Assembly: GCA_021324545.1 (NCBI GenBank)
Contig: JAJPIX010000017.1
Span: 1 to 55,025 of the forward strand
Source of the DNA: Alphaproteobacteria bacterium
Lineage (GTDB): Bacteria > Pseudomonadota > Alphaproteobacteria > Micropepsales > Micropepsaceae
Length of the DNA stretch: 55,025 nt
Reading direction: 5' to 3'
Both the position numbers and the translations under genes were made by a program. Positions 26,117-35,922 of this stretch are shown here, piece by piece. The first letter of the stretch is position 1; every line of letters begins with the position of its first letter. The notes beneath the pieces were generated by a model. That model was not told the origin of the DNA, searched no databases, and saw only the letters and a program-made list of their open reading frames with translations.

Positions 26117-27523
26117 CTATAGCAGCATCGCAGCCGGTTCTTCGATGTATTGCCTGAAGGCCGCCAGAAAGCGCGCACCGGTGGCGCCGTCGATCACGCG
26201 ATGGTCGCAGGACATGGTGACCGTCATCATGGTGGCCCGTTCGATGCGGCCGTTGATGATGACGGCCCGCTCCTCGCCCGCGCCGACGGCCAGAATCGCC
26301 GATTGCGGCGGATTGATCACCGCCGTGAAGTCGCGGATGCCGAACATGCCCAGATTGGAGATCGAAAAGCTGCCGCCTTCATATTCCTGCGGCTTCAGCT
26401 TTTTCGCGCGGGCGCGTTCGGCAAGGCTCTTCACCTCGTTGGAGATGACGGCAAGCCCCTTCTCTTCCGCGCGGAACACGATGGGCGTGATCAGGCCGAA
26501 GTCGAGCGCCACCGCCACGCCCACATCGGCATGCTTGTGGCGAAGGATCGCGTCGTCCGTCCAGCTGGCGTTGACCTCCGGCACGCGCATCAGCGCCAGC
26601 GCGGCCGCCTTCACCACGAAATCATTGACCGAAAGCTTGAACCCGCCCTCGCCCTTCGGCGCGCGTTCGTTCAGCCGCACGCGCGTTTCGATCAGTTCGT
26701 CGATGCGGCAATCGACGGTGAGGTAATAGTGCGGGATGAGAGTCTTGGCCTGTGTCAGCCTTCGCGCGATCGCCTTGCGCATGGAATCGTGCGGGATCGC
26801 CTCGTAATCCTCGGGCTTGTAGAACAGCCGCGCGTCGGGCAGCGGCGCGATGCCGGCAACGCCCGCTCCGGCGGGCGGCGCGGCGGGTTGCAACCCCGGG
26901 CGCGCCGGCGCTGTTGCCTTGCCCTGTTTTTGCGCCGCTTCGACATCGGCCTTGACGATGCGTCCGCGCGGGCCCGTGCCGCTCAGGGCCGCGATGTCGA
27001 TGCCATTCTGATGCGCGAGCCGCTTCGCAAGCGGCGAGGCAAAGATGCGTTCGCCCTTCTTTCCTTCCCCGGAAAGGGGAAGGTTGCGCGCCGAAGGCGG
27101 GCGGGCGGTGGTCTCATGTGAGGCAGCCTGGCCACTCCCCGAACCGCTTTCGGCGGTCCGATCCTTCTCTTTCAGGGAAGGCATATTCTGTTCGGGCTTC
27201 TTTTCGTTCTTCGCCTCTGCGTGAACCGCATCCTTGATGGATTGCATGGCAGACGAAATGTCCACCGCGCCGGGTTTTTCGTCCTCACCGAGCAGCGTGG
27301 CGATCGGCTGGTTCACCTTCACGCCCTCGGTGCCCTCCGGCACAAGGATTTTTCCGATCTTTCCTTCATCGACGGCTTCGAATTCCATCGTGGCCTTGTC
27401 GGTTTCGATTTCGGCCAGGATGTCGCCGGAACGAACCGCGTCGCCTTCCTTCACGTGCCATTTGGCGAGCTTGCCCTCCTCCATCGTGGGCGAAAGCGCG
27501 GGCATGAGGATGTTGGTGGCCAC
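26117..27523 (-). CDS. pdhC: pyruvate dehydrogenase complex dihydrolipoamide acetyltransferase (E2)
   Basis: Forms the core of the pyruvate dehydrogenase complex and transfers acetyl from lipoyl to CoA. It is 468 residues: a lipoyl domain at 1-76 (lipoyl K43 in [10 protein letters not shown]), an Ala/Gly-rich linker, a peripheral-subunit-binding domain at about 161-197 ([20 protein letters not shown]), a second linker, and the catalytic domain with H441 in DHRVIDG. The GTG start at 27523 shares a base with the stop of the upstream GFA gene (TAGTG). Residues 139-157 are encoded by a palindromic element, and the lipoyl DNA is nearly identical to that of pdhB. Confidence 0.97.
27055..27110. repeat. 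palindromic repeat element inside the pdhC linker
   Basis: A perfect 8-bp stem CCTTCCCC (27063-27070) / GGGGAAGG (27076-27083) with a five-base loop, followed by GCGCGCCGAAGGCGGGC, which holds a smaller stem. This arrangement matches, from memory, a widespread alphaproteobacterial intergenic palindrome type. Here it is read in frame as about 19 linker residues (139-157) containing [10 protein letters not shown]. Confidence 0.6.
27296..27523 (-). repeat. lipoyl-domain direct repeat, copy in pdhC
   Basis: These 228 bases align without gaps to 29132-29359 in pdhB, with about 23 differences by hand count (roughly 90% identity including third codon positions). The similarity is too high for ordinary lipoyl-domain homology and suggests recent duplication or gene conversion. 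Confidence 0.85.
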
Positions 27524-27942
27524 TAGTTGCCCTCCAGCGCCCGCAGATTGCCGACGTTCTGTTCCCAATGCGCGCCGTCGAATTCCGTTGTCACGACCGA
27601 GCGGAATTCCTCCGCATTGAGGCAGCGAAAGTTCACGCTGTAGCTGTCCGGGTGCGAGCGCGGCACATAGAACGACTTGATGCCGCAGACGGAGCAGAAC
27701 AGGTGCTTCGCGGTGCCCGTGTTGAAGGTGTAGGAGGTGAGCACAGGTTCGCCGCGCAGGATCCTGAAGCGCGTTTTCGGCACGATCAGGTGCAGATAAC
27801 CGGTCATGCGGCAGATGGAGCAGTTGCAGTCGATCAGCTCCACTTCGTCCGGCGTCTCAATCTCGAACAGCACCGCGCCGCAGTGGCAGTGGCCGCGATG
27901 TTTGCCGAGTGGTTTTTCCTTTTTCTTACGCCGGGGCGCCAT
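27523..27942 (-). CDS. GFA-type (CENP-V/GFA domain) zinc protein
   Basis: A 139-residue protein of the glutathione-dependent formaldehyde-activating enzyme (GFA)-like family. Cysteine ligands are C19 and C21 (HCHCGA), C39, C41 and C44 (CNCSIC) and C83 and C86 (FCSVCG), the standard two-zinc arrangement. Most members have no proven formaldehyde activity, so function is open. It starts one base after the pdhB stop and its stop shares a base with the pdhC start, so it is fully embedded in the pdh operon. The basic N-terminus (RRKKKEK) may be unstructured. Confidence 0.9.
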
Positions 27943-27943
27943 G

Positions 27944-29359
27944 TCAGGACCTGTAGCAAACCGCCTTCGCCGCCGCGACAATCTCATCGGCATGCGGCAG
28001 CGCCAGCTTTTCCAGATTGGCGGCATACGGCATCGGCACATCCTTGCCGGTGATCTTGGCCGGCGGCGCATCAAGATAGTCGAACGCGTGCTCCACAACC
28101 TGCGCCGCAAGTTCCGAACCGATGGAGCAAATCGGCCATCCCTGTTCGACCGTGACGATGCGATTGGTCTTCTTCACGGATTCGATCACGGTCTGCGCAT
28201 CGAGCGGCCGCAGGGAGCGAAGATCGATCAACTCCGCGTCGATTCCTTCGGCCGCGAGCTTTTCCGCAGCTTCAAGGATCAGGCCCACGCAAATCGAATG
28301 CGCCACCAGCGTCACATCCTTGCCGCGCCGGATCACGCGGGCCTTGCCGATGGGCACCAGATATTCCTCCATTTTCGGTACCGGAAACGACCGGCCGTAA
28401 ACGATTTCATTTTCCAGGACTATGACGGGGTTGGGATCGCGAATGGCCGATTTCAGCAACCCCTTCGCGTCCGCCGCGAAATAGGGCGCAACAACCTTCA
28501 ATCCCGGCACATGCGCATACCAGCTGGAATAATCCTGGCTATGCTGGGCCGCGACCCGTGCGGCAGGCCCGTTCGGTCCGCGGAACACGACGGGGCAATT
28601 CATTTGCCCGCCCGACATGTAGCGCGTCTTGGCGGCGGAATTGATGAGCTGATCCATCGCCTGCATCGCGAAGTTCCATGTCATGAATTCGACAATCGGC
28701 CGCAACCCGCCGAAGGCCGCGCCGACGCCAAGGCCCGCAAATCCATGTTCGGTGATCGGCGTATCGATAACACGCTCGGGTCCGAATTCCTCGAGCAGGC
28801 CCTGGCTCACCTTGTACGCGCCCTGGTATTGCGCCACCTCCTCGCCCATCAGGAACACGGTTTTGTCGCGGCGCATTTCTTCGGCCATCGCATCGCGCAG
28901 GGCTTCGCGCACGGTTATGGTCACCATTTCGGTGCCGGCCGGCACTTCGGTATCGGACAGCGCTGCTTCCGCAATTTCCAGGGCGTCGGCCTTTCTGGCC
29001 GCAGGCCTGGCGCGCGTTTCTTCCTCTCGGACTTCCTTGCGGGCTTCGCGCTTTGTCTCTTCGCGGCCGCCTCCGGTTTGCGTTGCGGCGACAGGCTCTG
29101 CCTCTTCGCCCGCATCGCCGTCCGCCAGAAGCGTGGCAATGGGCTGGTTCACCTTCACGCCTTCGGTGCCCTCCGGCACAAGGATCTTTCCGATCTTTCC
29201 TTCATCGACGGCTTCGAATTCCATCGTCGCCTTGTCGGTTTCGATCTCGGCCAGAATGTCGCCGGAGTGGACGTCCTGGCCCTCCTTCACGAGCCATTTG
29301 GCGATCTTGCCCTCTTCCATCGTGGGCGAGAGCGCGGGCATGAGGATTTGCGTGGCCAT
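27944..29359 (-). CDS. pdhB: pyruvate dehydrogenase E1 component subunit beta with lipoyl domain
   Basis: With PdhA, decarboxylates pyruvate and acetylates lipoyl groups. It is 471 residues: an N-terminal lipoyl domain (1-78, K43 in [10 protein letters not shown]), a charged linker of about 60 residues ([15 protein letters not shown]), and the E1-beta transketolase-like domain from about residue 143 ([20 protein letters not shown]). Fusion of a lipoyl domain to E1-beta is a known alphaproteobacterial trait. The start directly follows the pdhA stop (TAGATG). Its lipoyl DNA is a near copy of that in pdhC. Confidence 0.97.
29132..29359 (-). repeat. lipoyl-domain direct repeat, copy in pdhB
   Basis: The partner of 27296-27523: the same orientation, 228 bases, no gaps. 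The two copies lie 1,836 bases apart, so recombination between them would delete the E1-beta domain, the GFA gene and one lipoyl copy. Confidence 0.85.
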
Positions 29360-34101: not shown

Positions 34102-35922
34102 ATGACCACCACCGCCAGCACCGGCCAGCGAAAGCCTGGCGCTTTCGCCAATGCCGCCCGTCAGGGCGATTTCACCGCCGATCCGCGGCTGCTCATTCTC
34201 AGCGCCATGGCGCTGGTCGCCGGTGCCGGCGGCGCCGCTTCGGCGTGGCTGCTGCTGAAGATGATCGCGTTTTTCACCAATCTCGCCTTCTTCGGCCGGA
34301 TCAGCACGGCGGCCGTCTCGATCTCCGGCTCGCCGCTCGGGCCCTACATCATTCTCGTACCGGTGATAGGCAGCCTGATCGTGGGCCTCATGGCGCGCTT
34401 CGGGTCGGAGAAGATCCGCGGCCACGGAATTCCCGAAGCCATCGAAGCCATCCTGATCGGGCAGAGCCGGATCGAGCCAAAGGTCGCCGCCCTCAAGCCG
34501 CTGTCCTCTGCGATTTCCATCGGCACCGGGGGGCCGTTTGGCGCCGAAGGACCGATCATCATGACGGGCGGCGCGCTTGGCTCGCTGTTCGCGCAACTGT
34601 TCAATCTGAGCGCGGCCGAGCGGAAGACATTGCTTGTGGCAGGCGCGGCCGCCGGCATGACGGCCATCTTCAACACGCCGATCGCTGCGGTTCTGCTTGC
34701 GGTCGAACTTCTGCTGTTCGAATGGAAGCCGCGCAGTTTCATTCCCGTCGCCGCCGCGGCGATCGTCGCCGCCGCGATCCGCCCGTACATCCTGGGCTCG
34801 GGCCCTCTGTTTCCCTTCAGCGGCGATCCTGCGATGCCATGGTGGGGGCTGGCCCTGTGCGCGCTCGCCGGATTGGTTGCCGGCCTTCAATCGGCGTTGA
34901 CAACGCTGTGCCTCTATGGCGTCGAGGACCTGTTCCACAAGCTTCCCGTCCACTGGATGTGGTGGCCGGCCATCGGCGGTCTTGTTGTGGGAGTTGGCGG
35001 CTGGCTTGATCCCTCCGCGCTCGGCGTCGGCTACGACGTCATCCGCGCGCTGCTGCACGGACAGCTTGACGCCATCGCGACCTCGAAGCTGCTGGTGGAC
35101 AAGGCGGTCATCTGGGTCGTGGCGCTTTCCTCCGGCACATCCGGAGGCGTCCTGGCGCCGCTGCTCATCATGGGCGGCGCGCTCGGCGGAATTGAAGCGC
35201 ATGTCATGCCCTTTGGCGGGCCGGGCTTCTGGGCCCTGCTCGGCATGGCGGCCATTCTCGGCGGCACGATGCGCGCGCCATTGACGTCCACGCTGTTCGC
35301 CATCGAACTGACGGGCGACGTCCATGTTTTTCCGGCGGTGCTGGTGGCGTCCGTCAGCGCCTTTGCCGTGACGGTTCTGCTGATGAGCCGCTCGATTCTG
35401 ACTGAGCGCATCGCGCGGCGTGGCCTGCATATCGCCCGCGAATACAGCGTCGATCCGTTCGAAAGCACGCGCGTGGCGGACATCATGGCCAGACCCGTGC
35501 ACACGCTGGCGGCTTCGATTCCCGTCCCGGAGGCCATTGCCTTCTTCATGGTCGCAGAAGGCACGCGCCGCCACAAAAGCTATCCGGTCGTGGACGGCCA
35601 GAATCATGTCATCGGCATGGTGTCGCGGTCGGATGTGCTGCGCTGGTCGCGCGACGGATTCAACGAGACCGACACGCTGGGGCACATGCTCGACAAGGGC
35701 TCGCTCGTGTTCGGCTACGATGACGAGCCGGTTGGCGCCCTTGCCGACCGCATGGCCCGGACCGACGTGGGGCGGGTTCCCATACTCAGCCGTGCGACGG
35801 GAACCTTGGTGGGCCTTGTGGCGCGCCGTGATCTGTTGCGCGTGCGCACCAGGGTCATCCGGGAAGAACGGCACCGCAGGCGAATCTTGCGGCTGGACAT
35901 CCGTGCCTCTGACACGGATTGA
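34102..35922 (+). CDS. ClC-type chloride channel/transporter with C-terminal CBS pair
   Basis: About 606 residues: a ClC membrane domain of some ten helices followed by two CBS domains. The ion-pathway motifs are GHGIPEAIEA (usually GSGIP), GTGGPFGAEGPIIMTGG with the gating glutamate in GAEGP, and SSGTSGGVLAPLLIMGG. The CBS region begins near RVADIMARPVHTLAAS and may sense adenosine nucleotides. Whether it is a channel or a chloride/proton exchanger cannot be decided from sequence. An in-frame ATG at 34045 is an alternative start. It is the only plus-strand gene between pyrG and kdsA. Confidence 0.93.
   Translation: MTTTASTGQRKPGAFANAARQGDFTADPRLLILSAMALVAGAGGAASAWLLLKMIAFFTNLAFFGRISTAAVSISGSPLGPYIILVPVIGSLIVGLMARFGSEKIRGHGIPEAIEAILIGQSRIEPKVAALKPLSSAISIGTGGPFGAEGPIIMTGGALGSLFAQLFNLSAAERKTLLVAGAAAGMTAIFNTPIAAVLLAVELLLFEWKPRSFIPVAAAAIVAAAIRPYILGSGPLFPFSGDPAMPWWGLALCALAGLVAGLQSALTTLCLYGVEDLFHKLPVHWMWWPAIGGLVVGVGGWLDPSALGVGYDVIRALLHGQLDAIATSKLLVDKAVIWVVALSSGTSGGVLAPLLIMGGALGGIEAHVMPFGGPGFWALLGMAAILGGTMRAPLTSTLFAIELTGDVHVFPAVLVASVSAFAVTVLLMSRSILTERIARRGLHIAREYSVDPFESTRVADIMARPVHTLAASIPVPEAIAFFMVAEGTRRHKSYPVVDGQNHVIGMVSRSDVLRWSRDGFNETDTLGHMLDKGSLVFGYDDEPVGALADRMARTDVGRVPILSRATGTLVGLVARRDLLRVRTRVIREERHRRRILRLDIRASDTD

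Follow-up and report, generated by a model that had tools for sequence, protein, structure and literature searches.

The interdomain linker of PdhC, the E2 subunit of pyruvate dehydrogenase, in a member of the Micropepsaceae very probably contains a complete copy of a dispersed, nonautonomous palindromic element. The copy occupies positions 27063–27182 of the window, the whole 55,025-nucleotide stretch of DNA analyzed here, and appears to be read as ~40 residues of the protein. Related elements lie between genes across the genus and, at a minority of sites, in frame within conserved proteins.

Results

The element in pdhC. The host gene, pdhC, runs from 26117 to 27523 on the minus strand and encodes a dihydrolipoamide acetyltransferase of 468 residues with a GTG start codon. 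The element, also given here on the minus strand, is 120 bp long and was delimited by its match to a covariance model, R1, and by end-to-end alignment with dispersed copies. Its product corresponds to PdhC residues 114–154, in the linker between the lipoyl and subunit-binding domains. Despite the insert, the Pfam domains are intact (Biotin_lipoyl, residues 4–77; E3_binding, 160–195; 2-oxoacid_dh, 238–468). The reading frame is open throughout the segment, in agreement with the initial annotation, which had proposed an insertion that leaves the frame unbroken. Because the frame is kept and the segment is open in the frame used, the element would be translated as ~40 extra linker residues. The initial annotation had placed the insert at 27055–27110 and credited it with ~19 residues; both figures were too small, since the element extends through a second, decayed hairpin at 27163–27181 and encodes about 40 residues (114–154).

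Each half of the element consists of a terminal hairpin and a smaller inner stem; the two halves are inverted with respect to each other and are joined by the arms GGGGAGGGGTC...GACCCC. In the window one terminal hairpin is intact, with an 8-bp stem and a 5-nt loop (CCTTCCCC-GGAAA-GGGGAAGG, 27063–27083), and is adjoined by the small inner stem CGCC-GAA-GGCG (27089–27099); these are the palindrome and second stem on which the initial annotation was founded, and both are confirmed in the sequence. In the other half, reading of the sequence together with alignment to dispersed copies identifies an inner stem with one mismatch (CGAACCGC-TTTCG-GCGGTCCG, 27140–27160), followed by the decayed terminal hairpin (27163–27181), in which a 5-bp outer stem remains and the loop TTTCA is retained. 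The plan is illustrated by the dispersed copy G000:C31:45961–46075, which begins with the terminal hairpin CCCTCCCC-TGAAA-GGGGAGGG, an inner stem, GGGGAGGGGTC, and a short spacer, and continues with GACCCCCACCC, a second inner stem, and a terminal hairpin with the loop TTTCA. The window element aligns to this plan over its full length. Among dispersed copies the sequence of the inner stem varies, and units measure 91–132 bp across 15 listed dispersed copies of the same genome. One variant element, whose hairpin loops differ (TTTAT and ACAAG), lies between two ORFs at G000:C34:3958–4076.

Two observations concern the neighborhood of pdhC. Between pdhB and pdhC, at 27523–27942 on the minus strand, is a small gene that we take, from its appearance, to encode a GFA/CENP-V-type protein; its stop codon shares one base with the pdhC start codon. 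The lipoyl-domain regions of pdhC (27279–27522) and pdhB (29115–29358) are 89% identical over 244 nt, a similarity that suggests the two genes have recently undergone duplication or gene conversion.

Dispersed copies. The genome to which the window belongs (G000) comprises 2.70 Mb in 68 contigs and is 97% complete. R1 was built from nine copies, four from G000 (including one in ctaA) and five from the congener G022, with none taken from pdhC. Over its whole length the model matches 27063–27182 at 71.4 bits, with E-values, rough since calibration was shortened, of 6.6e-18 for the window and 3.2e-16 for the genome. At E ≤ 0.01 it identifies 20 places in G000 with strands merged, four of which supplied training copies, and these places bear out the proposal that the pdhC linker contains a palindrome of a dispersed, intergenic type. 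The BLASTN comparison suggested for finding such copies fared otherwise: a BLASTN-type search of G000 with 27030–27135 yielded no convincing copy, the best nonself match having an E-value of 0.07. That negative is best regarded as a false one, because the copies are divergent. The exact palindrome shape is present at three places in the genome, against none in the control. Within the window there is a second, weak R1 match (34946–35061, E 0.0044), which may be a decayed copy or due to chance.

The element is widespread in the genus. R1 matches were found in 19 of 20 genus genomes searched, at 1 to 111 per genome with strands counted separately (73 each in G083 and G067); G029 had none. When PdhC linkers were themselves used as queries against 12 genomes, that of G034 gave 48 matches in G034, itself included, and 13 in G033, while that of G022 gave 12 in G022, itself included, and 8 in G000. 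In several congeners the PdhC linker likewise contains two palindromic halves in inverted orientation. Some dispersed copies lie between what we take, from the translations, to be purC and purS, and also sucC and sucD; two neighboring copies occupy the latter apparent interval at G000:C48:33147–33731.

Coding potential was assessed for 17 of the 20 G000 places with a script that scores codon usage and was trained on 34 ORFs of the window. Two of the 17, in pdhC and ctaA, lie wholly within supported ORFs and in frame; each of the other 15 either falls outside the ORFs selected or overlaps just the start of one, where the start codon is unsettled. We considered whether the element is preadapted to coding and rejected the idea: in 53 dispersed copies a mean of 3.34 of the six frames were open, compared with 3.81 in dinucleotide shuffles and 3.47 in random stretches of flanking DNA. 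Because the dispersed copies do not exceed expectation in their open frames, the element is not adapted to coding; a sequence of its composition is often open by itself.

In-frame copies in other proteins. In CtaA of G000 the insert comprises residues 194–229, within a COX15-CtaA Pfam match (residues 21–367, E 1.2e-103). In the same loop, G004 has another full-length palindrome and G074 one of a different type, G034 and G002 have half-elements, and G026 and G021 have sequence that resembles half-elements; by eye, no palindrome is recognized there in G027, G028, G022, G029, G067, G076, and G084. Thus divided, the 16 usable rows of 19 include seven with a palindrome, seven without, and two that are unclear (G063 and G013); the rows for G033, G072, and G068 had been read in the wrong frame and were not used, and G083 yielded no CtaA match. 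Compared with G029 the difference is one of 63 versus 35 residues, yet the insert is 36 residues long. The net gain is smaller than the element, which indicates that the flanking sequence changed too.

Among 21 genomes, 19 of which were readable, the element is also present in the pdhB linkers of G072 and G021. The pdhB linkers of G022 and G013 contain, by eye, a different repeat with RHPEV-type residues, which looks like another family of elements in this linker. Examination of 20 places in G034 for coding identified an insert in dnaX (residues 324–371), flanked by Pfam domains of which the first ends at 321 and the next begins at 390. At 40 further loci, from G022 (12), G074 (10), and G083 (18), two copies were in frame: one in rnr of G074, where it falls within the RNB match, and one in mutL of G083, where the flanking domains end at 307 and begin at 393. 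The mutL copy, which scores 45 bits, is the weakest coding case. Coding cases are a minority, and the pdhC and ctaA sites recur.

PdhC linkers across the genus. PdhC was matched at E ≤ 1e-80 in 62 of 69 genus genomes, and linkers could be parsed for 58 of these 62 congeners and one outgroup (59 rows; G075, G087, G065, and G036 are absent). Three of the 62 do not show the linker: G075 and G087 end at a contig edge before it, and in G065 it is broken by an assembly gap. Eleven of the 62 have the element type in the PdhC linker, namely G000, the nine R1 carriers G022, G004, G067, G033, G034, G083, G072, G074, and G080 (the last on a partial contig), and G065, where both terminal hairpins are present with the gap between them. 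Because that gap falls inside the element, the apparent stop codon at this locus (G065:C31) may be an effect of assembly. In the majority of the genus's PdhC loci, R1 gives no match in the linker. Over the compared region, complete carriers have linkers of 78–117 residues and most of the others 57–76 (59 rows), which fits the expected indel among relatives, most of which are shorter and lack the element; the lengths do overlap, with G002, G005, and G023 reaching 81–84 residues in the absence of a recognized element. Other repeats occupy the same linker, including a different palindrome with a 12-bp stem in G013 and, in G027 and G028, a stretch that resembles a repeat, has weaker stems, and is perhaps a third element type; G063 has, by eye, an apparent remnant.

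Local alignments divide the pdhC copies into two sequence classes. In class I, the copies of G034, G074, G067, G033, and G072 are mutually nearest and are joined by the pdhB copies of G072 and G021; the G034 and G074 copies, for example, score 102.5 with each other, against 56.5 for the best copy in G034's own genome. The partial G080 copy, counted with class I, is also nearest to pdhC copies. The copies of G000, G004, and G022, in contrast, are nearest to a dispersed G000 copy, with dispersed versus best other pdhC scores of 51.5 versus 42.0 (window), 54.5 versus 38.5 (G004), and 58.5 versus 42.0 (G022), where the dispersed copies compared came only from G000, G022, G034, G074, and G083 and the best one for G004 is from G000. 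We read these classes as suggesting that one insert is older and shared and that at least one insertion or conversion is younger.

A different history, which we consider possible but doubtful, is that a single ancestral insertion in the clade of carriers was followed by many losses, and that the window copy was later overwritten by conversion from dispersed copies. Two findings are consistent with it: the high scores of class I copies among themselves and the position of the element, which by eye ends 6–13 nt before the same Arg codon, that opening the subunit-binding domain, in nine carriers (G000, G004, G022, G034, G033, G072, G067, G080, and G065). However, the element of G074 ends 42 nt before that codon (the end in G083 is unreadable), and a site near the domain edge may merely be where insertions are tolerated. 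The affinity of the window, G004, and G022 copies for a dispersed copy over other pdhC copies also argues against one origin, as does the PdhC tree, on which carriers are scattered among noncarriers, although its bootstrap support is not settled; G034, for example, stands beside G076, which lacks the element, and G022 forms one clade with G068 and G084, which also lack it. Exchange between pdhC and pdhB may have contributed as well. The two inserts of G072 are close (score 98.0), and this closeness, together with the similar lipoyl regions of the two genes in the window, makes pdhB/pdhC conversion plausible.

Mobility and hairpin structure. No target-site duplication was recognized by eye in the dispersed copies examined, and no exact empty site was found. 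Being built of two inverted hairpin units, the element resembles a REPIN, and it might be moved by a RAYT transposase. A search for the RAYT-type domain Y1_Tnp (PF01797) gave matches in 5 of 20 genomes (G083, G067, G004, G026, and G002), two of which, G083 and G067, are rich in the element. We nevertheless regard RAYT-driven movement as improbable, given that alignments of copies reveal no constant GTAG beside the hairpins and that the search gave no Y1_Tnp match in G022, G034, G033, G074, or G000, where the element is also common.

Slightly less probable still is that the hairpin is maintained for a role in the mRNA, such as ribosome pausing after the lipoyl domain or operon tuning. It does keep an 8-bp stem fully paired within coding sequence, none of 200 shuffles was as stable as the RNA fold of 27045–27125 on the minus strand (z −3.5), and several congeners retain strong stems in the PdhC linker. 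Against such a role, most congeners lack the element in this linker, inserts are also found in unrelated proteins, and the other half of the window copy has decayed. One half being perfectly paired and the other decayed, the copy looks more like a tolerated selfish or neutral insert than a maintained RNA device.

With up to three mismatches allowed, the palindrome at 27063–27083 is the sole match to its pattern in the window, and shuffles contain a mean of 0.28 matches; by this loose test alone it is unremarkable, because 23 of 100 shuffles contain at least one. That it arose by chance in a GC-rich, Ala/Pro-rich linker enlarged by local duplication, as the shuffles and the empty BLASTN-type search might permit, has next to no probability and is already refuted by the 120-bp end-to-end match to dispersed intergenic copies (E 3e-16).

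Beyond the genus. R1 matched 15 of 142 genomes of the class at E ≤ 1e-4, G000 and one congener included. Among the best 80 PdhC loci of the genome collection, it found a linker match in two at E ≤ 0.01 (L117 and L125), while the PdhC locus of Mesorhizobium sp. AR07 (L137) reached only E 0.064, and the matches at L163 and L142 fall outside the PdhC gene. A linker stem of at least 8 was present at seven loci, 72 of these best 80 being parseable. By eye, the linkers of L137, L125, L117, and L166 contain palindromes with pyrimidine arms that resemble the window element. L124, from another Mesorhizobium related to AR07, has a plain PdhC linker.

Queried with the AR07 linker segment, the AR07 genome and that of L124 each give 112 matches, strands counted apart. 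The five strongest matches of the segment in AR07, counting that in pdhC, can each be read in frame as PISP...GEIG; the hosts are PdhC, a second E2, and UvrD (Pfam) and, twice, GlyS (one by Pfam and one named from its flanks). The glyS gene of AR07 apparently contains two in-frame palindromic inserts ~1 kb apart (L385 and L389). The uvrD insert (L387 and L382) occupies the same place in two Mesorhizobium genomes, the case in the L124 genome being named from its flanks. Plasmid records gave only partial matches to the Mesorhizobium element, in four records.

Discussion

We propose that a dispersed palindromic element of about 120 bp inserted into the interdomain linker of pdhC, probably by transposition or a similar process. 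This stretch of the linker accepts changes in length, and the residues of the insert would be made as part of PdhC with a near-neutral effect. The element would persist within genes only where the frame and the protein allow.

A broader and more tentative reading, to which we give somewhat less than even weight, is that the linkers of lipoyl proteins (PDH E2 and E1-beta) are recurrent sites of landing or retention for several palindrome families across the Alphaproteobacteria, with turnover and possible conversion between pdhC and pdhB. It is prompted by the sharing of the pdhC linker within one genus by the element described here, the G013 palindrome, and perhaps the G027/G028 type, by the closeness of the G072 pdhC and pdhB inserts, and by the similar palindromic linkers found elsewhere, including AR07. 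If this reading is true, linkers would be continually supplied with new sequence by mobile DNA.

Comparing species that carry the insert with those that lack it, and shared copies with apparently younger ones, offers a natural experiment on how selfish DNA is turned into protein, for how long a hairpin can last within a reading frame, and how far the length of a PDH linker matters. The inserts also counsel caution, as linker residues such as LPLSGEG, SPLEGE, and PLKGEG in such proteins can be read-through mobile DNA.

Elements of this kind are already known, in the form of Rickettsia palindromic elements (RPEs) and intragenic REPs. RPEs were reportedly described by Ogata in 2000. The element itself had no Rfam 15 match above the gathering score, either in the window (26800–27500) or at three copy loci, and titles and abstract openings in the open-access literature revealed no paper dealing with either the window element or palindromes within E2 linkers. 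The best subthreshold bacterial match, of half of a dispersed copy (L087:1499–1554), was to the Whalefall-1 sRNA, at 23.4 bits versus the 37 needed.

Several known repeats share part of its plan. The Caulobacter CIR is likewise an alphaproteobacterial intergenic repeat, but it is reported not to be intragenic and to be closed in all six frames (PMC2229807), whereas two of the 17 examined places of the present element are intragenic. REPIN or BIME modules associated with RAYTs similarly consist of two inverted hairpin units dispersed as one module (PMC3116915); unlike them, the element has no constant GTAG tag, and its genome of origin has no Y1_Tnp match. Among REPs, Di Nocera 2013 (PMC3733652) describes the GTAG and CGTC super-families, some copies of which lie within ORFs, where the authors propose flexible linkers or loops; CGTC REPs have stems of 8–9 bp and loops of 4–5 nt, are common in the Alphaproteobacteria, and lack a dedicated transposase. 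Inverted hairpin pairs, some of them inside ORFs, are thus a likeness to REP dimers (PMC3733652). In contrast to REPs, the element lacks AT at the first stem positions, a CCA tail, and a constant CGTC or GTAG, and it possesses an extra inner stem and joining arms; its stems begin with CC, and the alignments contain no constant CGTC or CCA tail, CGTC preceding the stem in some copies. As far as the text of that description goes, the element lacks the defining marks of both REP super-families.

The closest likeness is to RPEs, a parallel drawn by the initial annotation that holds as one of type. RPEs are described as palindromic and 105–146 bp long (PMC2229807) and Rickettsia elements as lying in frame inside proteins (PMC2229807, PMC6649704), and guanylate kinase carrying an insert is reported to be both translated and active, its affinity for substrate being altered (PMC2229807). 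The element described here is likewise a dispersed palindrome of similar size, located both between genes and in frame in conserved proteins. It differs from RPEs in being GC-rich, in belonging to another alphaproteobacterial genus, and in its hosts, which include the linkers of E2 and E1-beta and CtaA. Collectively, these findings extend protein-embedded palindromic elements, for which Rickettsia is the best-known example, to another alphaproteobacterial genus and to Mesorhizobium, with the same linkers occupied repeatedly.
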